DNA of 64,000 nucleotides from Planctomycetota bacterium (GTDB lineage: Bacteria > Planctomycetota > Phycisphaerae > UBA1845 > UTPLA1): positions 124,001 through 188,000 of the forward strand of contig QEVG01000004.1 in NCBI GenBank assembly GCA_003576905.1. Reading direction: 5' to 3'. The first letter of the stretch is position 1, and every line of letters starts with the position of its first letter. The notes beneath the pieces were generated by a model. It had not been told where the DNA came from and searched no databases. It saw nothing but the letters and a program-made list of their open reading frames with translations. A program made the position numbers and the translations under genes. Below are positions 45,706 to 64,000 of this stretch, piece by piece.

Positions 45706-45723
45706 GCCCGCGCGGAAGCGGGC
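45706..45723. other. GC-rich hairpin between the toroid and moxR genes
   Basis: GCCCGC and GCGGGC form a perfect six-pair stem around a GCGGAA loop, 17 bases after the toroid stop codon. There is no T-run, so it is not a standard terminator. It could partly attenuate the downstream genes or protect the upstream message end. In DNA this GC-rich it may also be chance. Confidence 0.25.
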
Positions 45724-45784
45724 CCGCGCCGCCGCACACGCCAGCTCGTGCCGGGGGTTTGTTCCGCTCCAGAAAGGAATTCGC

Positions 45785-46852
<1,068 letters not shown>

Positions 46853-47884: not shown

Positions 47885-50194
47885 ATGCCGACCTGGCTGT
47901 CCAGCTTCATGTTGAATCCGGCCCTGGCCGCCGGCGCTGCCGCCGTGGCCAGCCCGATCCTGATTCACCTGCTCTCGCGTCGGCGCTTTCGCCGCATTCG
48001 CTGGGCGGCCATGGACTTTCTGCTCGAAGCGCAGCGGCGCAACCGCCGCCGCGTCCGCCTTGAACAGCTCATTCTTCTCATCCTGCGCTGCCTGGCGATC
48101 TTTCTGCTCGCCCTGGTGATGACCCGGCCCTTCATCCGCCCCAGCGTGCTCGGGGCCGTCAGTTCGGCCGGGCGCACCGAACGGATCATTCTCATCGATG
48201 ATTCCTACTCGATGGACTATCGCAGCCCCGGCGGCGCGGCCGGCGGACGAAGCGTCTTTGCGCGCGCCGCGGAAGCGGCGAAGTACATCGCCCTTGCCGC
48301 CGCAGAAGAAAATGAGGCCGATTCGCTCACCCTGCTTACCGCCGGCAGTCCGCGTCAGCCCGTCGTTGCGCTCGCCTCTCTGTCCGAGGCCAATCTGAGG
48401 CAACTGGGCGACGCGCTCGATGCCGCCCGACCGACACAGGCTGCGGCCGCCCTACCGGAGGCGATCGACGCCGTGGCCGACATGATCCGCGCGCGCCCGA
48501 CGCAGGCCAGCGCCGTCGTGTACGTCATCAGCGACTTTCAGCGGCACGACTGGCTGGCGGACGAGGGACGTCAGGATCGCCGCAGCCCGGCGGAGACGCT
48601 TGCGGCCCTCGCAAAAGGCGGCAAGGGCGTGCGCCTGGTACTTGTTGACACGGCGATCGACCCGCAGCCCTCGAATCTCGCCATCACGGAGCTGCGCCGC
48701 GACCAGCCGCTGGTGGTCACCGGCGTGCCGACGCGCTTTGAACTGGCCGTCGCAAATTATTCGCCGCGCCCGGTCGAACAGGTCGAAATCAGCATCCGCG
48801 CCGGGGACCACACCCTCCCGCCGATCACGATTCCCGCCATCTCCGCCGGGCAGCTCGCCCGTGAGCCTGTCGAAGTCACCTTTGCCGACGACGGCTCGGC
48901 CGTACTGGAGGCGAAGATCGTCGGGGCGAGCCAGCTCGGCGACGGCCTCGCGCTGGACAATGCCCGGCTCGCGCCGGTCGAGGTCGTTCCGGCGGTACGC
49001 GTGCTGATGGTCAGCGGAGAGCCCAGCGGCGACCCGTACAACGACGAGGTCTTTCTGCTGCGCACGGCATTGCGCCCCGAAGGCCGCGCCGCCAGCGGCA
49101 ACGAAATCGATGTCATCGACGATCAGGAACTGGAGGGCGCCGACCTCGCATCCTACGACCTGGTCGTCCTGGCAAATGTCGATCGTCTGGCGACCGTCGG
49201 CCTGCGCAACCTGGAGAGTTACGTCCGCGCGGGCGGAGGTCTGGTGATTTTCTGCGGCGACCAGGTTGATGCGGCCTATTACAACGACGCGCTGTACCGC
49301 GAGGGCGAGGGGCTTCTGCCCGGCCCGCTGGGGGATGTTCAGGAAGCTGCGGGCGGCGCGGCCGCGATCACCATCGGCGACTGGGACGCGGCGCACCCGC
49401 TCATGCGTGCCTTTATCGATGAACTCGCGTCGGTGCTGAGGCTGGTCAAGATCGACGCGTTTCTCAAGATGGATGAAGACGCCGCGGCTGCCGCGAGTCA
49501 GCCGGCCGGCCGCCCCGCCGCTGACGGCGCGACATCGTCCGTGCGTCCGCCGTCCCGCGTGATTGTCCGGCTTTCCGACCCCGATCATTCTCCGTTGATG
49601 ATTGAGCGTTCGTTTGGGCAGGGCAACTGTCTGCTCATCACCACCAGCGCCGATCAGGAATGGAACGAGTGGGCCGCGAGCTTCAGCTACCTGCCGATGA
49701 TGCTCGAAATCGTGCAGTACGCCGCGCGGCAGGCCGCGGCGACGCCGACGGCGGTGGTGGGCGCGCCGCTGACCTGCGCGATGGACCCTACGGTCATTCA
49801 GAAGTCCGCGCGAGCGCGGACGCCCGGCTACCCCGTCGAGGCGGAGATTCCGCTGGAGGCGAAAGTCGAGGCGGACCGCGCGGCACTGGTGTTCAATGAC
49901 ACCAGCCGTTGCGGCACCTACCGGTTCGAGATGACCTCGACGCGCGGCGAGCCGATCTCCCGGTTCGGCGCGGTGAATCCCGATCCGGCGGAGGCGAATC
50001 TCGCCCGGGCGTCACGGGCGGAGCTGCTCGAGGTCTGCGGAGAGCTGGACGTCCAGTATGTGACGGACGTGGCGGCGCTGGCCGAGAAGGCGGCTTCGGC
50101 GCGCATTGAAATCTGGTGGCCGCTGCTGATGGCGGCGATCGTACTGTTCATGACCGAGCATGTGCTCGCCTGGTGGTTCGGCTCGCGTGGGTAA
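47885..50194 (+). CDS. BatA/vWA-domain membrane protein (second copy)
   Basis: 769 residues. The BatA N-terminus (LNPALAAGAAAVASPILIHLLSRRRFRRIRWAAMDFLLEAQRRNRRR) has two helices around a basic loop. The vWA metal site is LIDDSYSMDY, then VVYVISDFQRHDW. A GATase-like/ThuA-type domain (about 360-500) and a terminal helix (WWPLLMAAIVLFMTEHVLAW) follow. The extracytoplasmic linker contains AAASQPAGRPAADG. It probably anchors the MoxR/DUF58 module in the membrane. Confidence 0.9.
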   Translation: MPTWLSSFMLNPALAAGAAAVASPILIHLLSRRRFRRIRWAAMDFLLEAQRRNRRRVRLEQLILLILRCLAIFLLALVMTRPFIRPSVLGAVSSAGRTERIILIDDSYSMDYRSPGGAAGGRSVFARAAEAAKYIALAAAEENEADSLTLLTAGSPRQPVVALASLSEANLRQLGDALDAARPTQAAAALPEAIDAVADMIRARPTQASAVVYVISDFQRHDWLADEGRQDRRSPAETLAALAKGGKGVRLVLVDTAIDPQPSNLAITELRRDQPLVVTGVPTRFELAVANYSPRPVEQVEISIRAGDHTLPPITIPAISAGQLAREPVEVTFADDGSAVLEAKIVGASQLGDGLALDNARLAPVEVVPAVRVLMVSGEPSGDPYNDEVFLLRTALRPEGRAASGNEIDVIDDQELEGADLASYDLVVLANVDRLATVGLRNLESYVRAGGGLVIFCGDQVDAAYYNDALYREGEGLLPGPLGDVQEAAGGAAAITIGDWDAAHPLMRAFIDELASVLRLVKIDAFLKMDEDAAAAASQPAGRPAADGATSSVRPPSRVIVRLSDPDHSPLMIERSFGQGNCLLITTSADQEWNEWAASFSYLPMMLEIVQYAARQAAATPTAVVGAPLTCAMDPTVIQKSARARTPGYPVEAEIPLEAKVEADRAALVFNDTSRCGTYRFEMTSTRGEPISRFGAVNPDPAEANLARASRAELLEVCGELDVQYVTDVAALAEKAASARIEIWWPLLMAAIVLFMTEHVLAWWFGSRG

Positions 50195-50254: not shown

Positions 50255-52753
50255 TTGCGAAGCGAACTCGCACAAGTCAGACCGACCGAACGGCTGGAGA
50301 CGCAGCTCGAGCTGGCCCGATGGTCCTCGGACATCGGGCTTCTCGTCGGCGTGCTGCTTAGCGCCGTCGCGATCTATGCGATTGTCTGGTTGTACCGGCG
50401 CGAGTCGCGCGGGCAGCTTTCGCGGCGCATGCGCTGGACGCTGGCGGGTCTTCGCGTCGCCCTGCTGGGCCTTCTCGGCTTCATCGGGCTTGAGCCGGTG
50501 ATCGTAAACTACGTTCACCGCCGGATCGACGCGTACACGCTGGTGCTGGTCGACGAATCCGCCAGCATGTCCCTTGCCGACGCCTATCGGCTGCCGGAGG
50601 ACGCGCGGCGGGCGGAGGCGGTGCTGGGCGGTGATTCGCCGGAGGCCGTAAATCGCGCGGATCTGGAGGAACGATTGTTGACGGATCGCGAGAGCGGCCT
50701 GCTGCCACGGCTTGCGCGGCGCAACAAGCTCGTGGTGGCAAAGTTCAGCGATGTGCTGCGGCCCATCGGGGCGTTTCCGTCGGCGACGAGCGCCCCGGCC
50801 GGAGACGGGAATGTCGCGCCGGTCGACTGGACCGCGATCAGCGAGGCGGGGCTCGAAATCAATCCGGCGGGTTCGGCCACGGACGTCGGCATGGCGGTTC
50901 GCGGCGCGATCGACGGGGTCGGCGGCGCACCGATCGCCGGTGTCGTACTGCTTTCGGACGGCGGCTTTAACCGGGGCGAGTCGCCCGCGGTCATCGCCCA
51001 GATGCTCAAGGCCCGCGGCGTGCCGCTTTACGCGGTCGGCGTCGGCGATCCGTCCGAGCCGCTGAACGTCGTGGTGACCGAGGTCGCTGGTCCGCGTTCA
51101 GCCTTCAAGAATGATCCGTTCAGCGTGACGGTTCGGCTGGAAGCCCGGAATCTCGAGAACCAGTCCCTGTCGGTCGAGCTGCTCGAACGGTCCGCCGGTA
51201 CCGCCGGCACCCCGCAACCGGTCGATCGGCGGACGGTCCGCGTCAACGAGGATGGCACCGTCGAGCCGGTCGTCTTCGAGCGCAAGATCGCACGGCCCGG
51301 GGCCATGTCCTATGTCGCGCGCGTGGCCCCGGTGGAACACGAGGCCATCGCCGCGGACAACGAAAAGGAGATTCTGCCCGCGGTGCAGATTCTCGACGAC
51401 AAGATGCGGGTCCTTCTGGTCGCGGGTTCGCCGGTGTACGACTACCGGTTCCTCGCCCGGATGCTGGAGCGCGACGCGACCGTGGATGTGTCGACCTGGC
51501 TTCAGTCGGCGGACATGAATTCGGTGCGCGACGGCAACACGATCATTACCGAGCTTCCCGAAAAACAGGAAGAACTTTTCAAGTACGACGCGGTCATTCT
51601 GATCGACCCCGACCCGGAACAACTGGACCCCGCCTGGGGAAGCCTCCTGGCGGCGTTCGTGAGCGACCACGGAGGCGGCCTGCTTTACGGGGCAGGCAAC
51701 AAGTTCGCGGGACGCTTCTTCCGATCGCCGAATACGGCGTCCATCGTGGAGATGCTACCGGTCGTGCCGGAACCCGACGCCGAGATCATGCTTAACGAAC
51801 TGGGCCAGTACCAGACGCGCGCCTGGCCGATCGAGATCCCGGATGCGGCGCTGGGCGATTCGATTCTGCGTCAGGCCGACAACCTGGCGGAGAACCGCGC
51901 GGTCTGGTCGGCCCTGGACGGCGTGTACTGGCACTTCCCGGTGCGCCGCGAAAAGCCCGTGGCAGTGACACTAATGCGGCACTCAAATCCGCGCATGGTG
52001 AGCAGCTTCGGCCCGCACGTGCTCCTGGCGACGCAGTTCGTCGGCAGCGGCCGCTGCGTGTACCTGGGCCTTAACTCGACCTGGCGATGGCGAAAGCACG
52101 ACGAGAAGTACTTCAATCGCTTCTGGATTCAGATGACGCGCTACCTGGTCGAAGGGCGCCTCCTCGGCGGTCGAAGCCGCGGCATGATTCTCACTCCGAA
52201 AGATCAGTTTGACCTCGGCGAGTCCGTTCCCGTGACCGTCCGGGCGCTCGACGAGCGCTTCGATCCGCTCCTCGTGCCGGAGTTGGAGCTTGTCGCCGCG
52301 TCGACCTCGGGATCGGACGATTCCGGCGAGCCGCGGCAGCCGCTTCGCGTCACGCTGACGCCCGTGGTCGGCCGGGAGGGCTACTACCAGGGCCGGTTCA
52401 TTCCCTTGCAGGCAGGTACGATTCATCTTTCCGTGACGCTGCCGGGCCTCCCGACCGGACCGGGGCCAAGCCCGGTCCTGGAGCGAGACCTGACGATCAA
52501 CCGGCCCGCGATCGAGATGCGCAACACGGCGATGAATCGCGCGGCGCTGGAGCAGTTGGCGCTGGGCTCCGGCGGCCGGTATTTCGACGTCGACGAGGCG
52601 CCGCGGATCGCCGAACTGATCCCCGACAGCAGCCGGACGCTCGTTTCGCGCGAGCGGCCGCGGCCGCTGTGGGACAACGCGTATGTGCTCGTGTTGCTCG
52701 CGGTGATTGTGACGCTGGAATGGGCATTGCGCCGAAAGGCGCGGCTCTTGTAG
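50255..52753 (+). CDS. vWA/GATase-like membrane protein
   Basis: 832 residues from TTG 50255, chosen because GGAG lies eight bases upstream. Two N-terminal helices (about 28-48 and 67-90), then a vWA domain with VDESASMSL (D-x-S-x-S) and GVVLLSDGGFN. CARDB/Ig-like segments, a GATase1-like domain (RVLLVAGSPVYDYRFLARML onward) and a terminal helix (YVLVLLAVIVTLEWALRRK) follow. It is a paralogue in layout of the preceding BatA-type protein but longer. Together they form the membrane part of the MoxR system. Confidence 0.88.
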   Translation: MRSELAQVRPTERLETQLELARWSSDIGLLVGVLLSAVAIYAIVWLYRRESRGQLSRRMRWTLAGLRVALLGLLGFIGLEPVIVNYVHRRIDAYTLVLVDESASMSLADAYRLPEDARRAEAVLGGDSPEAVNRADLEERLLTDRESGLLPRLARRNKLVVAKFSDVLRPIGAFPSATSAPAGDGNVAPVDWTAISEAGLEINPAGSATDVGMAVRGAIDGVGGAPIAGVVLLSDGGFNRGESPAVIAQMLKARGVPLYAVGVGDPSEPLNVVVTEVAGPRSAFKNDPFSVTVRLEARNLENQSLSVELLERSAGTAGTPQPVDRRTVRVNEDGTVEPVVFERKIARPGAMSYVARVAPVEHEAIAADNEKEILPAVQILDDKMRVLLVAGSPVYDYRFLARMLERDATVDVSTWLQSADMNSVRDGNTIITELPEKQEELFKYDAVILIDPDPEQLDPAWGSLLAAFVSDHGGGLLYGAGNKFAGRFFRSPNTASIVEMLPVVPEPDAEIMLNELGQYQTRAWPIEIPDAALGDSILRQADNLAENRAVWSALDGVYWHFPVRREKPVAVTLMRHSNPRMVSSFGPHVLLATQFVGSGRCVYLGLNSTWRWRKHDEKYFNRFWIQMTRYLVEGRLLGGRSRGMILTPKDQFDLGESVPVTVRALDERFDPLLVPELELVAASTSGSDDSGEPRQPLRVTLTPVVGREGYYQGRFIPLQAGTIHLSVTLPGLPTGPGPSPVLERDLTINRPAIEMRNTAMNRAALEQLALGSGGRYFDVDEAPRIAELIPDSSRTLVSRERPRPLWDNAYVLVLLAVIVTLEWALRRKARLL

Positions 52754-52798: not shown

Positions 52799-55012
52799 AT
52801 GGCTCGACTGGACGTACAAACAGACTTCCGCCGGGCGGTTCTCGACCCCCTGATCGCGGTCGGCCGCGCGCTCAAGCGCCAGGTCGTCGTGCAGGGGCTT
52901 TGCCGCTGCGCCGCCGTGCTGGCCGTCGCCGCAATCGTGCAGTTCGCTCTCGATGCACTCCTGGTGCTCGGCACGGGCCCGCGCGTTGCGCTTGGCATTG
53001 TCGTCCTCGGTATCGCCGGATACGAATTCTGGAAGTGTGTTCTGCGTCCCGCCGCGATTCGCGTTGAGCCGGGCGACGTGGCCGCACTGGTCGAGCGGCG
53101 AAATCCCGCCCTGCAGGATCGGCTCGCCTCCGCCGTCGCTTTCGCCACGGCCGCCGACGTCCGGCCCGAACGCGACTCTCCTGCGATGATCCATGCCGTG
53201 ATGGATGAATCGCGCGCCGCTGTCGCCGGCCTGCGCCTGGCAGATCTCTTCCGCCCGGACAGGCACCGCCGATACCTGATGATGGGCCTGGCTGCGGTCG
53301 GCGTCCCGGCGCTGCTGGCGATGTTCTTTCCCGATATGGTCGCGACATTTCTGGCGCGCAATGTGGCTCTGCGCGAGGTGCCGTGGCCGTCGCGCGTAAC
53401 GCTCGTATTGGAGGGCTTCACCGGCGACCGGTTGCGCTGGCCCATCGGCGACGACCTGATGCTCGTGGCCACGGCGCTCAACGAAGTGCCGCCCGGCGTC
53501 CGCGCCGTTTTTGAGTCCGCGTCTGGCGAGTCGGTCGTCCGCGAGATGGCCCGCCGGGGTGAGAACCAGTTCGTCCTCGACTACGGACCGCTCCAGAACT
53601 CAATGCGCGTCCGGTTCTCCATCTGGCGACTGGGCGTCGATGAGAAGACGCAGTGGTACACGATCGATGCAGTCGAGCGGCCATCCGTCCGCGAAGTCGC
53701 CATTCGCGTCACGCCGCCGGAGTACACCGGTCTGGAGGCCTTCACCCTCGCCACCGGCCAGACCTCCGCGGACATCCTCCGCGGCGCCCGCGTGCACATC
53801 CGCGCCGAGTTGAGCAAGCCGGTGGTCAAGGCGGCCCTCCGCACGTCCGACCAGGTCATCTCCGACGCCGCGATGGAGTCAGATACCGTGGTCAGCGCCG
53901 AGTTTTCACCCGTGCTGAGCGGTGCGTATTACTTCGATCTTCTCGACGCCGACGGGCTGACAGACACCCGTCCGGTCACCTACGGACTTCGGCTTGCCGC
54001 CGACCCGCCGCCGAAAGTCCGCTTCTCCCTGCCCGGCGCGGGCGAGATGCTCGTCCCGACGGCAATCCTGCCGCTGAATGTCGAATGCGAGGACAACCTC
54101 GGCCTCAAGCGGGTCGAATTGGTGCATGGTGTCGTGCCCGGTGAAGCGACGACCAGCCAGCCGGCCCCGGAGACCGAGGAACTCCCGAATCTTGAAGCGC
54201 GTCAACAGCGCTACACGGTCAGGCTGCCGTGGCCGCTACTTCCGCTGACTCTCAAGCCCGGCGATCAACTGACCTTGCAGGTGCGTGCGGAGGACTACCA
54301 GCCGCCCGCCGTCGCGCCAACGCCGGATCGGGAAGGCGTGCCGACAAGGACTGCGGCCGCGAACCTCGGGGAGTCGGGGCTGTATACATATCGGATCGTG
54401 ACGCCGGAAGAGCTGGCGGCCGAACTGTCACGCCGCGAGAGTGAATGGCGGCGCGAGTTTGAGCAGATTATCAAGGCGCAGGAACAACTGAATCTTCGCG
54501 TGACCGAGCTGTTCGCCTCGTCCGACGTGGAAACGGCATCGACCACGACTGCGGCGCGGCTCGGCCAGGAATCGCGCTCTCAGCGCCAGCAGGCCGGGCG
54601 GATGCGTACCGTCTCGCGGCAGTTCGAGCAGATCCTTGCCGAAATGGAAGTCAACCAGCTTGCCAACGCCGGCGTGCGCCGCCGGCTCGACGCCGGCGTG
54701 ATCGCGCCGATGCGCCGCCTGGTGAGCGAGGACGTGCCCGCGGTGGCCGAACTTCTCGAACAGCTTCGCGCGCAGTTCGACCGGCCCAGGGCCGAACAGG
54801 TGATCGAGGCCCAGACGCAACTGACGCGGTCGATGTACGCCATCCTCGCCAACATGCTAAAATGGGAAGGATACGACGAGGCCGTCTCGCTGCTGCGCGA
54901 CATCATCCGCCTCCAGGGGGACCTGAATCAGGACACGCAGCGCCGGCTCCAGAAGGAAATCGAAAAACTTCTCGAGGACGGCGCCGCGTCGCAGCCGGAG
55001 AACAACCCATGA
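52799..55012 (+). CDS. DUF4175-like membrane protein with C-terminal coiled coil
   Basis: 737 residues. Two helices near the N-terminus (about 35-80 and 160-180), then Ig-like beta domains (VTPPEYTGLEAFTLATGQ is typical of this group), and from about 540 a long charged coiled coil (EEWRREFEQIIKAQEQ-type heptads). The organisation matches DUF4175-like proteins found next to MoxR/BatA clusters, though the assignment is by resemblance only. The C-terminus ends ASQPENNP and a middle linker has TTSQPAPETEE. It overlaps the next gene by four bases. Confidence 0.8.
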   Translation: MARLDVQTDFRRAVLDPLIAVGRALKRQVVVQGLCRCAAVLAVAAIVQFALDALLVLGTGPRVALGIVVLGIAGYEFWKCVLRPAAIRVEPGDVAALVERRNPALQDRLASAVAFATAADVRPERDSPAMIHAVMDESRAAVAGLRLADLFRPDRHRRYLMMGLAAVGVPALLAMFFPDMVATFLARNVALREVPWPSRVTLVLEGFTGDRLRWPIGDDLMLVATALNEVPPGVRAVFESASGESVVREMARRGENQFVLDYGPLQNSMRVRFSIWRLGVDEKTQWYTIDAVERPSVREVAIRVTPPEYTGLEAFTLATGQTSADILRGARVHIRAELSKPVVKAALRTSDQVISDAAMESDTVVSAEFSPVLSGAYYFDLLDADGLTDTRPVTYGLRLAADPPPKVRFSLPGAGEMLVPTAILPLNVECEDNLGLKRVELVHGVVPGEATTSQPAPETEELPNLEARQQRYTVRLPWPLLPLTLKPGDQLTLQVRAEDYQPPAVAPTPDREGVPTRTAAANLGESGLYTYRIVTPEELAAELSRRESEWRREFEQIIKAQEQLNLRVTELFASSDVETASTTTAARLGQESRSQRQQAGRMRTVSRQFEQILAEMEVNQLANAGVRRRLDAGVIAPMRRLVSEDVPAVAELLEQLRAQFDRPRAEQVIEAQTQLTRSMYAILANMLKWEGYDEAVSLLRDIIRLQGDLNQDTQRRLQKEIEKLLEDGAASQPENNP

Positions 55013-57048
55013 GCCGGGGGCGAATGGACCATGCGGAATCGGACACGCGCGGCCGGCGGTCGGCTTCGACGGCCTTTCGCGCCGCGCGCTTCGCGCGGAC
55101 GGATCGCGATCGACGAATCCGTCTCCTCCTGGCGGTCTGTGTTGCGCTGAGCCTCGCGCATCCCTCACGCGCCCGGCAGCCCGCCGCAGAGCCGGACCCC
55201 GGCAGCAAGCAGCTCTCGCTCGAAGAGCGCCAGGCGATCATCAAGGACCGCGTGGCCCGGCTCGAAGACCGGATGTTCCAGCTCGCTCAGGCGATCAGGA
55301 AATCGGAGCCGGAAAAGTCGGGCCAGCTCATGCAGTCGCTCGGCGCGGCCCGCGGCATGATGATCCGCGCCAAGATGGAGGAGATTGCGAAAAAGCTCGA
55401 CGAATCGCAGTTCGCCGACGCAGTCGATTCGCAGAAGGCCGTGCACGCCGATCTCCAGGCCCTGCTCAAAATGCTCATGGAAGGGCCCGATCAGCTCGAC
55501 GATCGCCGCAAGGAAATCGAGAAGCTCGAAGAGCTCCGCAAACAGCTCGACGGCGTCATTAAGGAGCAGCGCGAAGCGCAGCGCAACGCCCGCGCCGCCG
55601 AGGGAAAGCCGTCCGATACGCTTGCCGCCGCGGTCGGAAAGCTTCAGAGACTGCTCGACCGCCAGCGCGCCCTGTCTGCAAAGCCCGGCGAAGATCTGCC
55701 GAAAGCCGCCGACGAGCAGGCCGAAATTCAGTCGGAAACCGAAACGCTCGCCGACGAGCTTCGCGATGCCCAGGCCGAAGGCAACCCTGCTGACGCCGAC
55801 GGAAAGATGGGCGAGGCGGCCGATGGGCTTGAGCGGGCCGCCGGAGCGATGGAGTCTGCCGGGCAGGAACTCCGAAAAAACAACCCGGACATGGCCAGGC
55901 CGCCACAGACGGACGCCGAGCAGGCGATGGAGGAAGCGCTTCAGAAGCTGAAGGACAAAATGGATCGTGACACGGCCGAGCGAAAGGCGAACGCCCCTCT
56001 CCAAAAGCAGGCCGCTGAACAGAAAAACATCACAGACAAGACCCGAAAGCTCGGAAAAAAGATGAAAGAGCAGTCGGGCGAGCCGTCCGGCGATTCCCAG
56101 GAAGGCTCGCAGGGCAAGGAGGGACAGGAGGGAAAAGAAGGCCAGCAGGGTCAGCAGGGAAAGCAGGGACAACAGAAGCCCGGCGCGCAGCAGGAAGGAT
56201 CACAGAGTCCCGAAGATTCCGGTGAGCAGGCTCCCGGCGCACAAAACATCCAAGAGGCAGTGCCCTTCCAGGAACAAGCGGAGCAGGAGCTCGATGAAAA
56301 GGACCCCGGCAAGGCCGCCGAGGCCCAGGCCAAGGCGCTGGAGAAACTGGAAGAAGCCCAGCGCGAGCTTGAGAAAAAGCTCGAACAGCTCCGCAAGGAA
56401 CAGCAGGAAGAACTGCTCGCCGCGCTCGAGAGCCGCTTCAAGGCGATGCTCGCCCGGCAGCTCGAAGTGAACAAGGGCACCGACCGCCTCGATGAACTTG
56501 GCGCCGCCAACTGGCGCCGGGCAGATCAGCTCGAGCTTGCCGACATCGCTCAGAAACAGACATGGGTTGGCGAAGAGGCCGAAAAAGCCCTGTACATTCT
56601 CAAGGAGGAAGGGACGACGGTCGTTTTCCCGCAAGTCGTTGAGCACGTCCGAGACGACGCCGCCGAAGCTGCCCGGCTCCTAACGGCCGCAAACACCGGC
56701 GGGACGACGCGGGGCATTCAGGCGGCAATCGTCGATACCCTCCGGGAGCTCATCGAGGCGATCGAAAAAAAGCAGGCCGAAAACGAAGCCGGCGAGGGCA
56801 ACCAGAACAGCGGCGAACAGGATCAAAACAAGAATCAACCCCTACTGCCCCCCTCCGCCGAGCTTAAGCTGCTGCGATCCTGCCAGTTGCGCGTCAACGA
56901 GGCCACGCAGCGTCTCGACTCCGACGTGGGCTCGGCCGGGCAGGAAACCGATGAAGTCAGAGAGCGGCGGATCAAGCTGGCCCGGCGTCAGCAGCAGGTT
57001 CATGACATGGCCAGGTCAATGCACGAGGCCATTCGTCAGGCGCAGTAA
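55009..57048 (+). CDS. Exported coiled-coil protein with collagen-like tract
   Basis: 679 residues. A basic N-terminus is followed by a hydrophobic signal (IRLLLAVCVALSLAHPSRA-RQ). The mature protein is almost entirely charged helix with heptad repeats (KEIEKLEELRKQLDGVIKEQ; EEAQRELEKKLEQLRKEQQE). Residues about 363-392 are a Gly-x-y tract (GSQGKEGQEGKEGQQGQQGK). ATG 55009 overlaps the previous stop (ATGA); the open frame to 54862 is rejected. It reads as a long, rigid periplasmic or surface scaffold, possibly trimeric at the Gly-x-y tract. The protein ends in another coiled coil. Confidence 0.85.
   Translation: MSRGRMDHAESDTRGRRSASTAFRAARFARTDRDRRIRLLLAVCVALSLAHPSRARQPAAEPDPGSKQLSLEERQAIIKDRVARLEDRMFQLAQAIRKSEPEKSGQLMQSLGAARGMMIRAKMEEIAKKLDESQFADAVDSQKAVHADLQALLKMLMEGPDQLDDRRKEIEKLEELRKQLDGVIKEQREAQRNARAAEGKPSDTLAAAVGKLQRLLDRQRALSAKPGEDLPKAADEQAEIQSETETLADELRDAQAEGNPADADGKMGEAADGLERAAGAMESAGQELRKNNPDMARPPQTDAEQAMEEALQKLKDKMDRDTAERKANAPLQKQAAEQKNITDKTRKLGKKMKEQSGEPSGDSQEGSQGKEGQEGKEGQQGQQGKQGQQKPGAQQEGSQSPEDSGEQAPGAQNIQEAVPFQEQAEQELDEKDPGKAAEAQAKALEKLEEAQRELEKKLEQLRKEQQEELLAALESRFKAMLARQLEVNKGTDRLDELGAANWRRADQLELADIAQKQTWVGEEAEKALYILKEEGTTVVFPQVVEHVRDDAAEAARLLTAANTGGTTRGIQAAIVDTLRELIEAIEKKQAENEAGEGNQNSGEQDQNKNQPLLPPSAELKLLRSCQLRVNEATQRLDSDVGSAGQETDEVRERRIKLARRQQQVHDMARSMHEAIRQAQ
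56095..56171 (+). repeat. Collagen-like Gly-x-y coding tract
   Basis: Eight consecutive Gly-x-y triplets (GSQ, GKE, GQE, GKE, GQQ, GQQ, GKQ, GQQ) lie inside the coiled-coil protein, rich in Gln, Lys and Glu. The DNA is correspondingly purine-rich with repeated GG-CAG/AAG units and looks compositionally unlike its neighbours. Proline is nearly absent from the triplets, so a stable triple helix is doubtful. Confidence 0.7.
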
Positions 57049-57138
57049 TGCGGGCCGCGAGCCGTCGTTAAGCTCATTATGGGCTGGTTCCGCTTCGGCG
57101 GGCCCGGAAATGCTATGATGATGGGTAAGGAGTCGCCC

Positions 57139-58257
57139 ATGACCTGGCTTGTTCTCCTATTGTCAATGACCGCTGCCGGGCTTCCGGCCGAGACCAGCCC
57201 CGCCGCCTCGCCCGAGGTTGCTTCGGCCGATCCGTCCACTGAGGAAGTCTCGACCCCGCGGCCCACCACGGATGAAGTGCTCGCCGGCTTTGTCGATCAT
57301 CTGTCAAGAGCGGAGTCATTTGAGCCTTCCGCCCGACGATTCGTCCTCGACCGGGCCGTTTCGCTGGGCGACGGCGAAAAGGCGGACTTCCTGAGTGCCT
57401 CGCTCGCCGTCCTGTCCGACGGCTTCAAGATCGGTTTGGACCTGCTCGACAAGGACGATCCGGCACGGGCGGCGAGTGTCTTCGAGGCGCTTTCAATCGA
57501 CGACGATCCCTATCTCTCCGTTGCCGCCGCGATTCAGGCCGCGCGCGCGCTGGTCGATCTCGAAGACATCGAGCGCTGCCGCGAGATTCTGACGCGCGTC
57601 AAGGACGCGCATGGCGACATCGAGAAATACACGCTGGAGCCGGATCATTTCATGTTCATGCTGGGCTACTGCCAGGTGCATTCGCTCGAGTACGAGGACG
57701 CCGGCAAATCCCTGACAACTTTTCTCAGGCGATATCCCGACGCCCCCGAGCGGTTGCGGCTCACCGCCACCCAGATCGTCACCGAACTGGAGCGGCGCAT
57801 GCCCGGCCAGTTGGGCGACGTGCGCGACCTGATGAACTACGCCCGCCGCCGGCTCGATCGCGGTCCGGTTGACGAGGTGGTCATCGCCCGACAGAAGAAC
57901 GCCGTGGAGCTGCTCGACGCGATGATCAAGGAGGCCGAGGATCGCGAGCAGGGCGGCAAAAACAAGGGCGGCGGCTGCAAGAAGTGCGGCGACAGCAAGT
58001 GCAAGGGCTGCCAGGGCGATCCCAAGGGCAACAGCAATCCAGGCAGCGGTGCGCAACGATCCACGCTGCCCGGCGGAGAATCGCGCACCGGCGAGCTGCG
58101 CCGCGTGACGGCCCGGCCCGGAGAGGAATGGGGCCGCATGCCTCCGCGCGAGCGCGAGGAAATCCTTCAGACCCTTCAGCGCCGCTTCCCCAGCCAGTAC
58201 CGCGAGCTGCTCGAGCAGTATTACCGCCAGCTCGCCAAGGACGCCCAGCCGCAATGA
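57139..58257 (+). CDS. Exported helical-repeat protein with a four-cysteine knuckle
   Basis: 372 residues from ATG 57139, which has AAGGAG six bases upstream. The signal peptide is MTWLVLLLSMTAAGLPA. Residues 60-270 are helical, TPR-like (ARAASVFEALSIDDDPYLSVAAAIQAARALVDL). At 280-291 four cysteines are spaced C280-x2-C283-x4-C288-x2-C291 in a Gly/Lys-rich linker, fit for a metal-binding or disulfide knuckle. The C-terminus (PPREREEILQTLQRRFPSQYRELLEQYYRQLAK) is a conserved helical end seen in planctomycete MoxR-associated proteins. It overlaps the next gene by four bases. Confidence 0.8.
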   Translation: MTWLVLLLSMTAAGLPAETSPAASPEVASADPSTEEVSTPRPTTDEVLAGFVDHLSRAESFEPSARRFVLDRAVSLGDGEKADFLSASLAVLSDGFKIGLDLLDKDDPARAASVFEALSIDDDPYLSVAAAIQAARALVDLEDIERCREILTRVKDAHGDIEKYTLEPDHFMFMLGYCQVHSLEYEDAGKSLTTFLRRYPDAPERLRLTATQIVTELERRMPGQLGDVRDLMNYARRRLDRGPVDEVVIARQKNAVELLDAMIKEAEDREQGGKNKGGGCKKCGDSKCKGCQGDPKGNSNPGSGAQRSTLPGGESRTGELRRVTARPGEEWGRMPPREREEILQTLQRRFPSQYRELLEQYYRQLAKDAQPQ

Positions 58258-59489
58258 CTTCGTTTTTCGGTCTCCTTCTAATCCTGTCGGCCGCGCCGGA
58301 TCAGCCTCTCTCTGCCGGCGGGTCCTCCGCGCACGCCGTGACGCTGGAATCCGTGGACGGCCCCGTGTGGCACGGCCACTTCCTTTCGATTGATGATGAA
58401 GGGCTCGTACACTTCCGCGTTGACGACCGCGACGAGCATGTGCCGCTCGACGACCTGACCCGGATCGAATTCGCATCCCTCCCGGCGCCCGCGCCGAAGC
58501 CGGCGATGAAAGCCGGTGCGACCCTCTATTTCGCCGACGGGGGCGTCGTGGCCGCCGGGCTGGTCGCCGCCCTCGACGGCGACCGCGGAATTCGCGCGGA
58601 CATCGGCCTTCCGGCCCCGGTGGATATTCCCTTTGGCGCGCTTGGCGCCATTCGCTTTGCCACGCGACCCCTCGATGCCGCCCAGGCCGAACTGTCCCGG
58701 CGATTGCGAAATCAGGAGGCCGGCCGTGATCTTCTCATCGCCGTACGCGACGGCAAACCGGTCGTTCTGCCCGGCACCTTGGAGCGGATCACCCCCGAGG
58801 CGTGGACCTTTCGCATCGGCGACAAGGCGCAGACTGCTCCGCTTGACAAGGCGTATGCCGTCGTGTTGTCGCGCCCGCTGACCGCCTCGGCCGCTCCGCC
58901 CGCGGAGATCGCGCTGCGTTCCGGCGGTACGCTCCACGGGCGCATCCGCTCGGCTGACGCGCGCGCATTCCGAATCGACGCCGGTGCGCTGGGGACGGTG
59001 GACATTCCCGTCGACTTTGTGGCGTCCATCACGCTTCGCAGCGGACGCGTGGTGCATCTGGCCGATCTCGAGCCGGCCACGGTTACGCAGCGATCCTACT
59101 TCGACCTGTCGTGGCCGCCCCGGAAGAACTGCAACGTGACCGGCGGGCCGATCCGCCTGGACGGACGGCGCTACGAACGCGGCCTCGGCGTGCACGCGTA
59201 CACGTCGATGTCCTGGGAGCTTGGCGGCGAATACGAGCAGCTCACGGCGATGATCGGCATTGATGAAAGCGTCGCCCCGCGCGGCCGCGCTGTCTTCCGC
59301 GTCCTTTGTGACAGCAAGGTGGCCTATGACTCCGGCCCGATCGGACAGGGACTGGCCACCCTCATCAAGGTCGACCTGACGGGCGTCAAAACGCTCACTC
59401 TCGAATGCGATCCCGGCGACGACCTCGATATCTCCGACCACTGCAACTGGGCCGCCGCCCGTCTCGTGCGCGCCAAGAGCGCGTCCTGA
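58254..59489 (+). CDS. Exported NPCBM/NEW2-domain carbohydrate-binding protein
   Basis: 411 residues with a short signal peptide. Residues 20-265 are repeated small beta units (GHFLSIDDEGLVHFRVDDRDEHVPLDDLTRIEF and a later GTLHGRIRSADARAFRIDAG), each comparable to Sm-like barrels. Residues about 270-408 are an NPCBM domain (RYERGLGVHAYTSMSWELGG; RAVFRVLCDSKVAYDSG; LTLECDPGDDLDISDHCNWAAARL), a jelly-roll that binds glycans in glycosidases and others. No hydrolase domain is attached, so it probably anchors a complex to cell-surface sugar. The ATG overlaps the previous stop. Confidence 0.88.
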   Translation: MTSFFGLLLILSAAPDQPLSAGGSSAHAVTLESVDGPVWHGHFLSIDDEGLVHFRVDDRDEHVPLDDLTRIEFASLPAPAPKPAMKAGATLYFADGGVVAAGLVAALDGDRGIRADIGLPAPVDIPFGALGAIRFATRPLDAAQAELSRRLRNQEAGRDLLIAVRDGKPVVLPGTLERITPEAWTFRIGDKAQTAPLDKAYAVVLSRPLTASAAPPAEIALRSGGTLHGRIRSADARAFRIDAGALGTVDIPVDFVASITLRSGRVVHLADLEPATVTQRSYFDLSWPPRKNCNVTGGPIRLDGRRYERGLGVHAYTSMSWELGGEYEQLTAMIGIDESVAPRGRAVFRVLCDSKVAYDSGPIGQGLATLIKVDLTGVKTLTLECDPGDDLDISDHCNWAAARLVRAKSAS

Positions 59490-59583: not shown

Positions 59584-61218
59584 ATGTGTTCGGGCATGTG
59601 CCTGTTGGCGATGTTATGGCTGTCGGGGATGCCGGCGCCGGAGGTTGCCTCCGAGCCGGCGGACACGGCCCGCGTCCTTGCCGCTGAACGTGCCCGGATC
59701 GAGACCATCCGCAAGATCGCCCCGTCGGTCGCGTGCGTTTTTCCAAAGGGTTCCCAGGCGGGGGGCGGTTCGGGTGTCATCATTGACTCCGACGGCTACG
59801 GACTTACGAACTTTCACGTCGTCGCGATGATGCTCAAGGATCGCGCCGGCGAGGTCGGCCTGACCGACGGCAAGCTGCACGACATGGAAGTCCTCGGCAT
59901 CGACCCCGGCGGCGACGTCGCGATGTTCAAGATCAGCGAAAAGGACGTGCTGGCGGTCGCCCCGCTGGGCGATGCGTCCTCCCTGCGCGTGGGTGACTAT
60001 ACCCTGGCCATGGGCAATCCATTCGGACTTGCCGACGACTACGCGCCGACCGTAACGCACGGAATCATCTCCGGGCTGCACCGGTTTCAGCCCGGCGTAA
60101 AGGGCGCGCTGGTTTATACAGACTGCATTCAGGTGGACACATCGATCAATCCCGGAAACTCGGGCGGCCCGCTCTTCGACATGACCGGACGGCTCATCGG
60201 CATCAACGGACGCATCAGCATCGAGGAGCGCAGCCGCGTCAACGTCGGCGTCGGCTTCGCCATCACCATCAATCAGATACGCCGTTTCATTCCCATGCTC
60301 CGCGCCGGGCTTCCGGCGCCCCATGCCTCCGCCGGCTTCACGGTGGGCGACGAGACGGAGGGCGTCATCGTCGACCAGATCGACGACAAGGGCCCGGCCT
60401 ATCGCGCCGGCCTGCGGTCCGGCGACCGTCTCGTGCAGGTTGCGGGCGTCGATATCCACAGCGCAAACCACTTTCTATCGGAGCTGGGCGTCTATCCCGG
60501 CGGCTGGCCGGTGGAAGTGGCGTACGAGCGCGAGGGCCGCGTCCAGCGCTTCCGCATTCGGCTCGACGCCCTGCCTTTGCCGAAGATGTTCGGCTCGGGC
60601 GGGCCGCGCGACGCGGAAAAGCCGAAGTTCGATCCGTATGGCCCCCATCCGGTCACGACGCGGGCCAACCGCCGCGCGGTCCGCCGGGCGTTCGAGATGT
60701 TCCACGAGTCAGTGGGCGGGGAGTCGGCGCTTGCCGGCTTCGGCGAGGTCGTTGCGAAGGGGCTTCGACGAAAGACGGGCGCGGTGGAAGAACCGCCGGC
60801 GCCCGTGACGTGGAGCCTTGCGTCGCCGGTCGAAGGCGCGGCGGAGCTTGATCTGAAGGCGTCCGCCGACGCAATTGAGCAGGCCGTCGTAGCGGCACTC
60901 CTTCGGCCGGCGGATCGTCCCGACCGGTTGGGATACCGCGTGGTCGGCGCGGACGAAATCCGCGGCCGCATAGCCGTCGTGCTCCAGCGCAGGTTGGACG
61001 AGGGCGGCTACCGCGTTTCACTGGATGACGAGAACGGCCGACTTCTGGCGATCGAGTTCATGCACGCAGCGACGAACGTCGCGGTGCGCTACGAGTACGG
61101 CGAGGAGCGTCCGGCCGGCCCGTTCAGGCTGCCCCACGCGCGGTGGCTCTATCACGATGACGTGCTGAAGGCGGAAGATCGGTTTGAGACCATGAGCGTT
61201 ACCGGGAAGGCGTCCTGA
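59584..61218 (+). CDS. HtrA/DegP-like serine protease with PDZ domain (active copy)
   Basis: 544 residues from an ATG with GGAG six bases upstream and a signal peptide. A trypsin-like S1C domain has a full catalytic triad: His78 in GLTNFHVV, Asp111 in GGDVAMFKI, Ser193 in NPGNSGGPLF. A PDZ domain follows (about 255-335: GVIVDQIDDKGPAYRAGLRSGDRLVQVAG). A C-terminal 180-residue extension (EMFHESVGGESALAGFGEVV onward) is not part of known HtrA. It is expected in the envelope, cutting damaged or regulatory proteins. The stop overlaps the next start (TGATG). Confidence 0.93.
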   Translation: MCSGMCLLAMLWLSGMPAPEVASEPADTARVLAAERARIETIRKIAPSVACVFPKGSQAGGGSGVIIDSDGYGLTNFHVVAMMLKDRAGEVGLTDGKLHDMEVLGIDPGGDVAMFKISEKDVLAVAPLGDASSLRVGDYTLAMGNPFGLADDYAPTVTHGIISGLHRFQPGVKGALVYTDCIQVDTSINPGNSGGPLFDMTGRLIGINGRISIEERSRVNVGVGFAITINQIRRFIPMLRAGLPAPHASAGFTVGDETEGVIVDQIDDKGPAYRAGLRSGDRLVQVAGVDIHSANHFLSELGVYPGGWPVEVAYEREGRVQRFRIRLDALPLPKMFGSGGPRDAEKPKFDPYGPHPVTTRANRRAVRRAFEMFHESVGGESALAGFGEVVAKGLRRKTGAVEEPPAPVTWSLASPVEGAAELDLKASADAIEQAVVAALLRPADRPDRLGYRVVGADEIRGRIAVVLQRRLDEGGYRVSLDDENGRLLAIEFMHAATNVAVRYEYGEERPAGPFRLPHARWLYHDDVLKAEDRFETMSVTGKAS

Positions 61219-62240
61219 TGCAAAGGCGACGAACAATCGCGGCATGCGCGACGTGCCTTATGAGTGTCGCCGCGGCGACAATGCCGCTGCGCGCCGCGCC
61301 GGGCGTCCGGACGGATTCGGTCGCCCCGCTCATCGGCGGTGCTGCCGACTGTGTGGTCAAGCTGTACGGCACCGCCGCCGGCCGCGAACACGGCTACGGA
61401 ACCGGCGTTCTGGTTTCGTCCGACGGGCGTATTGTCACGACGCTTTCGCTGCTCGTGAACCTGCGCGGCGTCCGCGTCGTGCTGCCCGACGGCCGCAGGT
61501 TCGAAGGCCGCCTGGAGCGAATCGACGAACGCCGGCAGCTCGCTCTGGTGAAGATCGAGGCCGAGGGCCTGCCTTTTCTCGCGCCCGTTCCGGCGACGGA
61601 CCTTGCCGGCGGTGACACAGTGATGGCTCTCGGAAACTGGTTCAAGATCGCCGAGGGGAATGAGCCCGTCTCGGTCTGCAAGGGCGTCTTCAGCGTGCGC
61701 ACGCCGCTCGAAGCCCGCCGGCTCGCCCAGGATTTTGATTACATTGGCGACGTCCTCATCTACGACGCGCTGACCGCCAATCCCGGCGCGGCCGGGGGGC
61801 CCCTGCTCGACGCCCGCGGCCGATTCGTGGGCCTCGTCGGCAAGGTCATCGAGTCGGTCAGCACCAACACGCGGATCAACTACGCCATCCCCTCCGAGGA
61901 AGTCATCGCGTTTCTGGGCGGCGAGGCGGCCGAGCCCCCGCGCGAGCCCGCCGCGCCGGTGGATCCGTCCCGTAAGCCGTATGTCGGCGTCAAGCTTGCG
62001 AAACTCGGCTATCGCCACGTCTCCGCCTACGTCGAGCGCGTGCGTCCCGGCTCGCCGGCCGCCGAGGCCGGCATCCGCGTCGACGATCTGATCATCGCCA
62101 TCGACGGCCGGCGCATCGCCGATGCCGATGAATACGACGCCGAGGTCGCCCGGCTCCTGCCCGGCCAGGTCGTGCCCTTCACGCTCAAGCGCGGCGCGGA
62201 AATCGTGAACGTCGAGGTGAAAGTGGGGGTCGCGCCGTGA
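61218..62240 (+). CDS. HtrA-like pseudo-protease with PDZ domain
   Basis: 340 residues with a signal peptide. The S1C fold is clear (EHGYGTGVLVSSDGRIVTT; VMALGNWFKIAEGNE; NPGAAGGPLLD) and a PDZ domain follows (VSAYVERVRPGSPAAEAGIRVDDLIIAIDG). All three triad positions are changed: His to Ser77 (IVTTLSLLV), Asp to Gln107 (RRQLALVKI), Ser to Ala192 (NPGAAGG). It cannot work as a serine protease. It likely binds the active HtrA or shares its peptides through the PDZ domain. Start and stop overlap both neighbours. Confidence 0.92.
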   Translation: MQRRRTIAACATCLMSVAAATMPLRAAPGVRTDSVAPLIGGAADCVVKLYGTAAGREHGYGTGVLVSSDGRIVTTLSLLVNLRGVRVVLPDGRRFEGRLERIDERRQLALVKIEAEGLPFLAPVPATDLAGGDTVMALGNWFKIAEGNEPVSVCKGVFSVRTPLEARRLAQDFDYIGDVLIYDALTANPGAAGGPLLDARGRFVGLVGKVIESVSTNTRINYAIPSEEVIAFLGGEAAEPPREPAAPVDPSRKPYVGVKLAKLGYRHVSAYVERVRPGSPAAEAGIRVDDLIIAIDGRRIADADEYDAEVARLLPGQVVPFTLKRGAEIVNVEVKVGVAP

Positions 62241-63442
62241 CGCATGCTAACCTGCATCGCTGCCTTGCCTGGGTCCTGGCGCTGTTTGCGTGCGGCGCGC
62301 GGCCCTCGGGAACCTGCGCAGCGGACGTCGCAGAGGAGGCCCGGCAATTCGAAGTGGCCAAGGCCCGGGCGATTCGCAATGCCGTTGCCGCCATTGCGCC
62401 CTCAATGGTCACCATCGAGACGGTCGGCGGGGCGCAGCCCGTCCGGCAGGGCATGCGCGGTCCCGTCGAGGAATCCTTCCGCGTGGCCGACGGCCCCACG
62501 ACCGGACTCCTTCTCTCCAACGACGGACTGATTCTGGCCAGTAGCTTCAACTTCGCGCGCGATCCGTCCATCATCACCGTGCGCCTGAGCGATGGCCGTC
62601 GCTTTGTTGCGACCCTGCTCGCCCGCGATCAGATCCGCCGTCTCGCCTTGCTGCGCATCGAGGCCGAGAATCTTTCGGCGGCGCGGTGGGTACCCGCCGG
62701 AGAGATTCAGGTCGGTCAATACTCCATCGCCTGCGGGCACGGATTGGGTGCGTCCCAGCCATTCGCGTCGCTGGGCATCGTCAGCGCCGTCGGCCGGCGC
62801 AACGGCATTGCCATTCAGACCGATGCCAAGACTTCGCCCATCAATTACGGCGGGCCGCTGATCGACCTCGACGGCCGCGTATTGGGTCTAATCGTCCCCA
62901 TTGCGGGAGCCGGAGGCGGGGCGCTCGCCGGTGTCGGCTGGTACGACAGCGGCATTGGCTTCGCCATTCCGCGCGATCGTGTGGATGACGTGCTCTCCCG
63001 TCTTCGCAAGGGTGAGAACATCGAGCCCGGCAAGATCGGCGTCGTCCTCGCTCCACTCGAGGAAGACCCGCTGGACGAGATGTTCCGCGACCTGTTCCCG
63101 AGCACGCGCGGCGTGCGCATCGCCGCGCTTGCCCGGCCGTCCCCGGCGGAGCGCGCCGAGCTTCAGGCCGGCGACATCATCCTCGAACTGGAAGGACGGC
63201 CCATTTCCGACGTGGCCGAGCTGCAACGGAAACTCAGCGACCGCGCGGCGGGCGAAAAGATCGTGCTCAAGGTCAAGCGCCGCTGGCGTACGCTCGATGT
63301 CGCGGTCCTGCTTGCCGCGCCGAAGGACATTGGTCCGTTTGACACGCCGGAAGAAGAGGAGGAAGCCGGCGCGGACGACGCCGAACTGCCGCCGGGCGAC
63401 GACGATTCCAATCAGCCGACCACGCAGCCGGAAGGCGATTAG
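62237..63442 (+). CDS. Second HtrA-like pseudo-protease with PDZ domain
   Basis: 401 residues from a GTG start overlapping the previous stop (GTGA), with a signal peptide. S1C-like features remain (TTGLLLSNDGLILASS; SIACGHGLGASQPFASLGIVSAV; SPINYGGPLIDLDG), followed by a PDZ domain (GVRIAALARPSPAERAELQAGDIILELEG). The triad positions are Phe104, Arg135 and Tyr204 instead of His, Asp and Ser. The acidic tail ends in NQPTTQPEGD. A bulky Tyr in the nucleophile position fills the active-site pocket, so this is a scaffold or regulator. It is convergent with nnrD, stops overlapping by four bases. Confidence 0.9.
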   Translation: MTHANLHRCLAWVLALFACGARPSGTCAADVAEEARQFEVAKARAIRNAVAAIAPSMVTIETVGGAQPVRQGMRGPVEESFRVADGPTTGLLLSNDGLILASSFNFARDPSIITVRLSDGRRFVATLLARDQIRRLALLRIEAENLSAARWVPAGEIQVGQYSIACGHGLGASQPFASLGIVSAVGRRNGIAIQTDAKTSPINYGGPLIDLDGRVLGLIVPIAGAGGGALAGVGWYDSGIGFAIPRDRVDDVLSRLRKGENIEPGKIGVVLAPLEEDPLDEMFRDLFPSTRGVRIAALARPSPAERAELQAGDIILELEGRPISDVAELQRKLSDRAAGEKIVLKVKRRWRTLDVAVLLAAPKDIGPFDTPEEEEEAGADDAELPPGDDDSNQPTTQPEGD

Positions 63443-64000
63443 CGCGCCTTGCGTGCGGCCCTCCTGAATGCCGCGGGCAGGTAGTCGATGAGGTCCGTCG
63501 CGATCAGCGAGATCTGCCCCCTCTCCCTGGCCGCGTGATCGCCGGCCATTCCGTGCACATAAGCGCCGAGCATCGCCGATTCGATTCCGCTTACGCCCTG
63601 GGCGATCAGCGCGGCGATCACGCCGGTAAGCACGTCTCCGCTGCCCCCGGTCGCCATTCCCGGGTTGCCGGTTCGGTTTACATAGACGCTTACGCCGTCG
63701 GTGACGATCGTACCCGACCCCTTGAGCACAACGACGGCGCGGTAATCGGGGTGATCGCGTCCGCCGGACATCTCCCGCGCGGTGCGGACGGCGAAGCCCT
63801 CGCGGTCGGCCTGAACCTGCGCGGCGCTGACGCCGTGCATGCGGGCAAGTTCGCCGGGATGGGGAGTGATCACGGTCCGAAAGTGCAGGGCCCGGTCCCA
63901 GCCGGTGTCGTCCGGGCCCGCCGCGCGGTGCAGGGCGTTGAGCGCGTCGGCGTCGAGCACGACCGGCACGCGGGCGTCGTCGCCGAAGGCGTTTGCCAGT
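63439..64000 (-). CDS. nnrD: ADP-dependent NAD(P)H-hydrate dehydratase, cut by the right edge
   Basis: The frame is open from the TAA at 63441 to the window end, so the N-terminus lies outside. 186 codons are present. Seen: VVLDADALNAL, VITPHPGELARM, VVLKGSGTIVTDG and the ribokinase-like catalytic segment GNPGMATGGSGDVLTGVIAALIAQG with the key Asp. It repairs damaged NAD(P)H hydrates using ADP. Only the C-terminal domain is visible, so a fused NAD(P)HX epimerase domain may exist upstream. A GTG at 63969 is not the true start. Confidence 0.9.
   Translation of the reverse strand, partial: LANAFGDDARVPVVLDADALNALHRAAGPDDTGWDRALHFRTVITPHPGELARMHGVSAAQVQADREGFAVRTAREMSGGRDHPDYRAVVVLKGSGTIVTDGVSVYVNRTGNPGMATGGSGDVLTGVIAALIAQGVSGIESAMLGAYVHGMAGDHAARERGQISLIATDLIDYLPAAFRRAARKAR

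Follow-up and report, generated by a model that had tools for sequence, protein, structure and literature searches.

Three HtrA-like genes in tandem

We analyzed a stretch of 64,000 nucleotides of planctomycete DNA (here called the window; positions 124001-188000 of contig 35 of a 4.7-Mb genome), in which three consecutive genes encode HtrA-like proteins with an S1C protease domain followed by a PDZ domain. The genes, here numbered 1, 2 and 3, all lie on the + strand and run head to tail, with an overlap of 1 base (TGATG) between genes 1 and 2 and of 4 bases (GTGA) between genes 2 and 3. Gene 1 starts with the ATG at 59584, which has GGAG immediately upstream, an alternative TTG at 59548 being possible; gene 3 has a GTG start. 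An initial annotation of this DNA had described three exported S1C-PDZ proteins in tandem, overlapping by 1-4 bases, and had read the triad sites as His78/Asp111/Ser193 in the first protein, Ser/Gln/Ala in the second and Phe/Arg/Tyr in the third. Coordinates and order were confirmed, as were the residues by alignment of the sites; the signal peptides of genes 1-3 were judged by eye.

All three proteins scored above the Pfam cut-offs for Trypsin_2 (PF13365) and PDZ_2. Together with the match of a gene 3 structure model to DegP (see below), this bears out the earlier proposal that fold and PDZ domain were retained. Comparison with the NCBIfam Do-family model TIGR02037 gave 211, 125.7 and 168.3 bits for genes 1, 2 and 3, all below the cut-off of 416.2. 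As judged from their domains and triad sites, genes 2 and 3 are members of the HtrA/DegP (S1C) family by descent, not enzymatically. No Pfam family matched the region of about 210 residues past the PDZ domain of gene 1 (60574-61215).

The triad is lost consistently from genes 2 and 3

Triad states were surveyed across Planctomycetota in three sets of loci. For set A, 40 relatives were searched with the whole gene 2 protein; 30 gave strong matches and, with the window, make up 31 loci. Ten other relatives were only weakly matched (best E 1e-28 to 1e-13) and were left out. For set C, a gene 3 profile was run on 294 Planctomycetota genomes with a completeness of at least 90%. It found 79 genomes with at least 208 bits, the next score being 204.5, and 40 of these 79 were picked to span families. 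Set B comprises the 80 shown of 291 relatives (299 stretches) from a global pattern scan for gene 3. As its patterns sit on degenerate gene 3 sites, triad counts for gene 3 are biased in set B, and this set was not used for the main claim. The profile behind set C still includes the altered sites, so that a slight bias is possible there. Contigs of set A recur in set B, and a second gene 3 fragment at L051, lacking the triad sites, was dropped before counting.

In the 71 loci of sets A and C (31 and 40), every gene 1 kept the triad, and no gene 2 (0/65) or gene 3 (0/68) did. Within set A, H/D/S was present in 30/30 gene 1 rows, the window counted, and in no row of gene 2 or gene 3. The joint alignment of sets A and C contained Asp and Ser in 64/64 gene 1 rows each and His in 58/58 aligned rows; the six rows without an aligned His carry the motif TN[YF]HVV. 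The Ser site of gene 2 was never Ser (A 28, P 19, Y 7, F 4, Q 3, E 2, T 1, H 1; 65 rows), and its His site was Ser in 47 rows and His in two. The initial annotation had stated that both pseudoproteases lost every catalytic residue. This holds for genes 2 and 3 of the window and does not extend to gene 2 elsewhere, where the Asp site is still Asp in 7 of the 65 rows. In gene 3, replacement followed a narrower pattern: the Ser site was Tyr in 64 and Phe in 4 of the 68 rows, and the His site was F 54, Y 5, W 4, E 2, I 1, V 1 and L 1. The oxyanion-hole glycine was present in 64/64 gene 1 and 65/65 gene 2 rows and in 0/68 gene 3 rows, where the position was A, V or I in 58.

As a control, 20 matches of the gene 3 profile just under the threshold were inspected (the next-ranked places, minus G165, G155 and second matches of genomes). 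H/D/S was kept in 17 of them. The 208-bit threshold divides the 1-2-3 type from ordinary HtrAs, and related pseudo-units fall below it. Three rows of set B reading 'ADS' were found to be a different active HtrA on the opposite strand, with its His misaligned by one column (TNAHVV). Same-genus orthologues differed by about 22-38% over the compared region.

Loss of the triad was thus consistent across the survey. Orthologues of gene 2 or gene 3 with an intact triad, named at the outset as a refuting outcome, were absent from the 65 gene 2 and 68 gene 3 sequences of the 1-2-3 type. Rapid decay, named as another, was not seen either: the replacements in gene 3 are conserved and the three genes form well-supported clades. 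Since gene order and triad loss recur together across the phylum, more than chance is at work. The trio is spread over much of the phylum and is under long-term constraint.

Several observations were made alongside the survey. Record titles in the 80 shown relatives of set B were planctomycete except for L087 (Alphaproteobacteria) and L103 (Proteobacteria); L087 (JANQQE010000032.1) bears the planctomycete operon, and its title looks wrong. Gene 3 frames of about 650-770 aa occur in L106, L110, L144, L183-L186, L188, L196 and L200; in their C-terminal halves, scores of 37-48 bits hint weakly at another PDZ-like repeat. Gene 3 is broken by a single in-frame stop at L074:9860-11104 and G166:C55:3221-4186, which could reflect assembly error or decay. 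The window's genome has 14 Trypsin_2 places, of which three are the trio and one is a fragment. Two of the ten remaining, assessable places look inactive, and single inactivated S1 proteins are, judged by their residues, not rare in this genome. One such protein (L239, C36:14353-14790, - strand) kept Asp and lacks His and Ser. On the - strand of contig C2, a second active HtrA is followed by an S1 protein without His and Ser, with domain matches about 1.7 kb apart (L005, 239063-239536; L241, 236966-237388).

Linkage and co-occurrence of the three genes

The order 1-2-3 on one strand was found in 28/31 loci of set A, 60/80 of set B and 34/40 of set C. The exceptions in set A were L056 and L068, whose stretches have genes 1 and 2 but lack gene 3, and L052, with gene 2 only. 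In set C, gene 3 was alone in its stretch in L181, L194, L212, L214, L215 and L216, the first two at contig ends. Set B contained, besides the 60 trios, 16 stretches with gene 3 only and four with genes 2 and 3 and no gene 1; several of these stretches stop at contig ends.

A gene 2 profile run on the same 294 genomes matched 78 genomes with at least 223 bits, the next score being 161. Both pseudoprotease genes were present in 78 of these related, not independent genomes, gene 3 only in one (G089, on a 5.4-kb contig) and gene 2 only in none. In 15 cases gene 3 (in G004, gene 2) lay apart, and a search of the whole genome found gene 2 in 14 of them with at least 240 bits. When G004 and the genome behind L079 are counted once, this corresponds to 13/14 distinct assemblies. 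The exception is G342, a 2.4-Mb assembly.

Gene fusions and permuted trios

Fusion of genes 1 and 2 into one open frame was seen in 4/31 loci of set A, 6/80 of set B and 4/40 of set C (14, some contigs being in both A and B). Carriers of this fusion belong to at least five families (f5, f8, f41, f46 and f65 in sets A and C). Some fusions have lost the C-terminal region of gene 1 and others retain it; at L068 the fusion is present and gene 3 lies elsewhere.

A pseudo-pseudo-active order was first found in four genomes near or just below the gene 3 threshold (L280-L283). Profiles of their pseudo-units led to 16 further loci (L292-L307), chosen nearly all for side-by-side matches of both profiles, giving a permuted set of 20 loci in 18 genomes. 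These trios, from other planctomycete families, have one H/D/S member and two degenerate members in 20/20 loci. The second-unit type, here the first pseudo-unit in the row, reads T or S, E and D at the triad sites in 10/20. In the third-unit type the His site is F, Y, W, L or H, the Asp site is Asp in 20/20 and the Ser site is V, T, L, A, I, M or S. Partial losses occur among third units (His and Asp without Ser in L296 and L297; Asp and Ser without His in L282 and L305), and none has the full triad. The two pseudo-units are fused in one frame in 6/20 permuted loci (L296, L297, L298, L300, L301 and L307). L286 and L289 have the active gene first and then a single frame with two pseudo-units. 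Two trios per genome were also seen: both permuted in G135 and G124, and one permuted with one of another type in G073 and G078.

Phylogeny

In a tree with 32 rows per gene, genes 1, 2 and 3 form three clades with an ultrafast bootstrap of 100 each, and branching within each clade broadly tracks taxonomy. A second tree of 97 rows set the 1-2-3 trios beside permuted trios, further HtrAs of planctomycetes and DegP of E. coli; it omitted near copies (L295, L301, L303, L307), additional S1 genes (L294, L295, L297) and the ordinary HtrAs at L284, L285, L287 and L288. Active units (99/97), gene 3 units (100/93) and gene 2 (100/100) each fell on one side of a branch. Within both the active and the gene 3 group, units of the L286/L289 type branch apart, and the 1-2-3 type is distinct from the 2-3-1 type. 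On these alignments, one triplication before the examined families diverged, followed by parallel descent, would be the simplest reading. In a smaller tree the second units were nearer to gene 3 (91/69), and this reading is therefore least certain where the second unit came from.

Structure models

The predicted model of gene 3 had a mean pLDDT of 88.6 and a pTM of 0.82. Its closest solved folds were DegP, DegQ, AlgW and HhoA (best E 1.9e-26, TM near 0.5); this TM value perhaps reflects a different placement of the PDZ domain in the model. A 29-residue helix precedes the protease domain. The natural fusion of genes 1 and 2 at L087 (860 residues) was modelled with AlphaFold2 from a 50-row alignment (mean pLDDT 78.5, pTM 0.62). 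This model consists of an S1-PDZ unit, an unassigned, many-stranded alpha/beta region at the end of the gene 1 part and a less confident second S1-PDZ-like part; its Foldseek matches are HtrAs.

Operon context

The trio terminates a conserved MoxR/DUF58/BatA-type operon in which all genes lie on the same strand (Table 1). Upstream synteny was followed in 18 stretches from 17 genomes. The run extends to MoxR/DUF58/BatA in L221, L222, L224, L225, L226, L231 and L233. In L227, L228, L229 and L232, BatA and the prenyltransferase-like gene were matched, MoxR and DUF58 were not. The run ends at the 832-aa gene in L220 and L236, at the 728-aa gene in L235 and at a cut BatA in L230, and the stretch upstream of the orphan gene 3 locus L234 gave no operon match. 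The 832-aa protein is far more widely distributed than the 1-2-3 trio; the operon therefore does not require the trio.

Downstream, an NAD(P)H-hydrate dehydratase gene of the NnrD type (63439-63999, - strand) ends against gene 3; a relative is present in 13/148 gene 3 loci. At L297:56-5965 a permuted trio stands directly behind MoxR and DUF58 genes, a second link between a trio and MoxR.

Table 1. Genes and triad sites of the trio and upstream operon genes in the window. Neighbour counts refer to 148 loci with gene 3 of 151 scanned; many loci are short, and sets A and B share contigs.
Feature	Position	Strand	Remarks
Gene 1	59584-61218	+	HtrA (S1C-PDZ) serine protease, triad intact, predicted exported; C-terminal region of ~210 residues behind
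Gene 1, catalytic His78 codon	59815-59817	+	
Gene 1, catalytic Asp111 codon	59914-59916	+	
Gene 1, catalytic Ser193 codon	60160-60162	+	
Gene 2	61218-62240	+	HtrA-like pseudoprotease, S1C-PDZ, S77/Q107/A192
Gene 2, His site (Ser77)	61446-61448	+	
Gene 2, Asp site (Gln107)	61536-61538	+	
Gene 2, Ser site (Ala192)	61791-61793	+	
Gene 3	62237-63442	+	HtrA-like pseudoprotease, S1C-PDZ, F104/R135/Y204, oxyanion position without Gly
Gene 3, His site (Phe104)	62546-62548	+	
Gene 3, Asp site (Arg135)	62639-62641	+	
Gene 3, Ser site (Tyr204)	62846-62848	+	
1612-aa protein, BamB-like stretch	39778-44616	+	NCBIfam BamB below cut-off; synteny partial; first gene of the run considered
Prenyltransferase-like alpha-toroid protein	44598-45689	+	Pfam PF13243; synteny partial
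MoxR-type AAA+ ATPase	45686-46852	+	Pfam PF07726
DUF58 protein	46887-47816	+	Pfam PF01882
BatA / VWA protein	47885-50194	+	Pfam PF07584, PF13519
832-aa protein, conserved operon	50255-52753	+	Synteny; relatives in 257/294 genomes of the phylum
737-aa protein, conserved block	52799-55012	+	Relative in 60/148 gene 3 loci, many too short
728-aa protein, glutamine-rich	54862-57048	+	Coiled-coil-like by eye; relative in 98/148 gene 3 loci
TPR-like protein	57079-58257	+	Pfam TPR below curated cut-off; relative in 99/148 gene 3 loci
NPCBM-domain protein, next upstream of gene 1	58200-59489	+	Start codon not fixed; Pfam PF08305; relative in 108/148 gene 3 loci

Interpretation of the trio

Textbook accounts describe HtrA proteases as homo-oligomers with mutually activating subunits; an HtrA trimer offers three seats, and its active sites are switched by neighbouring subunits. 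The recurring set of one live and two dead units fits these three seats, and we therefore favour a 1:1:1 heterotrimer. Judged from sequence, genes 1-3 probably specify a single envelope protease of ancient origin, for which an obligate 1:1:1 heterotrimer with one catalytic centre is the most likely form. The fuller account stands at about an even balance: an obligate heterotrimer of one live and two permanently dead paralogues would date from a single triplication that preceded the divergence of the families examined and have persisted through five arrangements, 1-2-3, (1+2)-3, 2-3-1, (2+3)-1 and 1-(2+3). The initial annotation had proposed a hetero-oligomer whose pseudo-subunits tune or target the active one. 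Fusions, co-occurrence and the recurring live/dead count favour it, and a hetero-oligomer is strongly suggested by these patterns; the physical complex itself is what we infer from them.

In such a heterotrimer, gene 1 would provide the sole active site and genes 2 and 3 would occupy the remaining two seats. Their allosteric role would be to contribute the interfaces and adjacent sensor loops on which activation of an HtrA active site depends, and their two differing PDZ domains could read ligands or targets. Gene 3 appears locked off by the aromatics at its His and Ser sites and by the non-glycine oxyanion residue; gene 2 would be dead too, with the oxyanion glycine retained. The complex may act on an envelope substrate, alongside the MoxR/DUF58/BatA/TPR/NPCBM proteins that its operon encodes. 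Proteolytically active mixed HTRA1 trimers, formed from R274Q and D174R-S328A, pair a trimer-defective mutant with a Ser-to-Ala partner in the excerpted text of PMC11252331, which indicates that a dead seat can serve.

Several observations weigh against this interpretation. The mean pairwise identity was 52% for gene 1, 37% for gene 2 and 44% for gene 3; genes 2 and 3 thus diverge faster. In the 97-row tree gene 2 and 17 of the 18 second units joined only weakly (85/58), and the remaining second unit, that of L286, was placed among ordinary HtrAs. The other three control matches (G044, G135 and G046; loci L244, L254 and L259) are third units of permuted trios that read F/D/S, F/D/V and F/D/T, a point that counts in part. 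Gene 3 sits apart from genes 1 and 2 in some genomes, and a formal (Fisher) probability for the co-occurrence overstates independence, the genomes being related. The count of three is disturbed by an additional, apparently active fourth S1 gene in the row of L297, by another active HtrA some kb away in L294 and L295 and by a PDZ-only frame within the row of L304. The model of the L087 fusion gave no confident docking or relative placement of its halves, with a pTM of 0.62. One aligned position in genes 1-3, which we take to be the trimer-core aromatic of HTRA1, is aromatic in 33/64 gene 1, 28/65 gene 2 and 60/68 gene 3 rows. The N-terminal aromatics of HTRA1 were not evident by eye in gene 1. 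At these positions, conservation of the trimer interface is not clearly apparent.

Genes 2 and 3 could instead be HtrA folds repurposed to work beside the protease, as MamO-like scaffolds or PDZ adaptors. What they bind and then deliver, to gene 1 or the MoxR/Bat machinery, would be a ligand, a metal, a glycan or an unfolded protein of the envelope. In the excerpt of PMC4794232, MamO activates MamE without catalysis and a physical interaction was undetected, so a partner of this kind need not touch the protease. Gene 3 resembles MamO in lacking the oxyanion glycine and in its bulky loop L1 residue, and it is sometimes unlinked. However, the repeated in-frame fusions (1+2; 2'+3'), the near-strict co-occurrence and the count of one live and two dead units point to one stoichiometric body, and we consider the adaptor explanation unlikely.

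Less probable still, by analogy with CspC and CspA acting with CspB, the dead subunits might act as inhibitors and keep gene 1 inactive until a signal reaches each of them. An identical layout is found in this unrelated protease family, where CspB is fused to CspA with CspC downstream and models of germination cast the dead partners as receptors of signals that keep the protease in check (excerpt of PMC6464247); two dead subunits of differing type would also suit two signals. In the mixed HTRA1 trimers, by contrast, the excerpted account (PMC11252331) has a dead subunit restoring activity. Inhibition overlaps with the heterotrimer and differs from it mainly in sign.

That genes 2 and 3 are drifting tandem duplicates heading for loss is highly improbable: two of the three genes lack the triad and evolve faster than gene 1, stop-broken gene 3 frames occur in L051, L074 and G166 and single inactive S1 proteins exist elsewhere in the window's genome (2/10), but each gene forms one clade over the same families, invariant positions remain, gene 2 occurs alone in 0/294 genomes and the gene 3 Ser site is Tyr or Phe in 68/68 rows. 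We consider drift refuted for the 1-2-3 type by the triad survey, the co-occurrence and the trees.

If the heterotrimer is correct, a natural set of one active and two inactive subunits would allow each seat of the HtrA trimer to be tested separately, and the repeatedly fused and reordered genes offer ready-made natural constructs of fixed stoichiometry for structural work. A bacterial pseudoprotease system found across much of a phylum would be added to the few known examples, and an HtrA would be tied to the planctomycete MoxR/Bat-type envelope operon.

Comparison with known systems

No published description of a live-dead-dead HtrA set was found in the open-licence literature, among the titles and abstract openings of the matches listed. 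PDZ proteins are expanded in planctomycetes according to the excerpted text of a microbial PDZ survey (PMC6411480), in whose main text neither 'triad' nor 'inactive' occurs.

With the Do/DegP (HtrA, S1C) family, genes 1-3 share the order of S1C and PDZ domains, and the gene 3 model folds as DegP, DegQ, AlgW and HhoA. They differ from it in that the triad is absent from two of the three members and all three score below the Do-family cut-off. DegP and its relatives are known as homo-oligomers.

The mixed HTRA1 trimers resemble the proposed complex in being HtrA trimers with dead subunits. They are, in the excerpt of PMC11252331, mutants of one gene (a disease mutant with an engineered partner), unlike a natural set of paralogues.

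MamE/MamO of magnetotactic bacteria likewise pairs an active HtrA with a pseudo-HtrA that is linked to it genetically and required for its function (excerpt of PMC4794232). MamO, like gene 3, lacks Gly193 and has a bulky L1 residue (gene 3: Gly 0/68, Ser site Tyr or Phe); gene 2 differs in retaining the glycine in 65/65. The trio has two pseudo-units instead of one and belongs to another lineage and another operon. Against the NCBIfam equivalog for MamO (cut-off 800), gene 1 scored 39.9 bits, gene 2 scored 33.6 bits and gene 3 had no match, and a Pfam search found no TauE transporter domain in genes 1-3.

CspB-CspA-CspC of Clostridioides difficile spores likewise brings an active protease and two pseudoproteases together in an operon, with the active protein fused to the first pseudoprotease (excerpt of PMC6464247). 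These proteins are subtilisin-like (S8) and act in a different cell process, whereas genes 1-3 are all S1C-PDZ. Csp proteins are not known to carry PDZ domains. MamE/MamO and CspB-CspA-CspC are the closest precedents for the trio.

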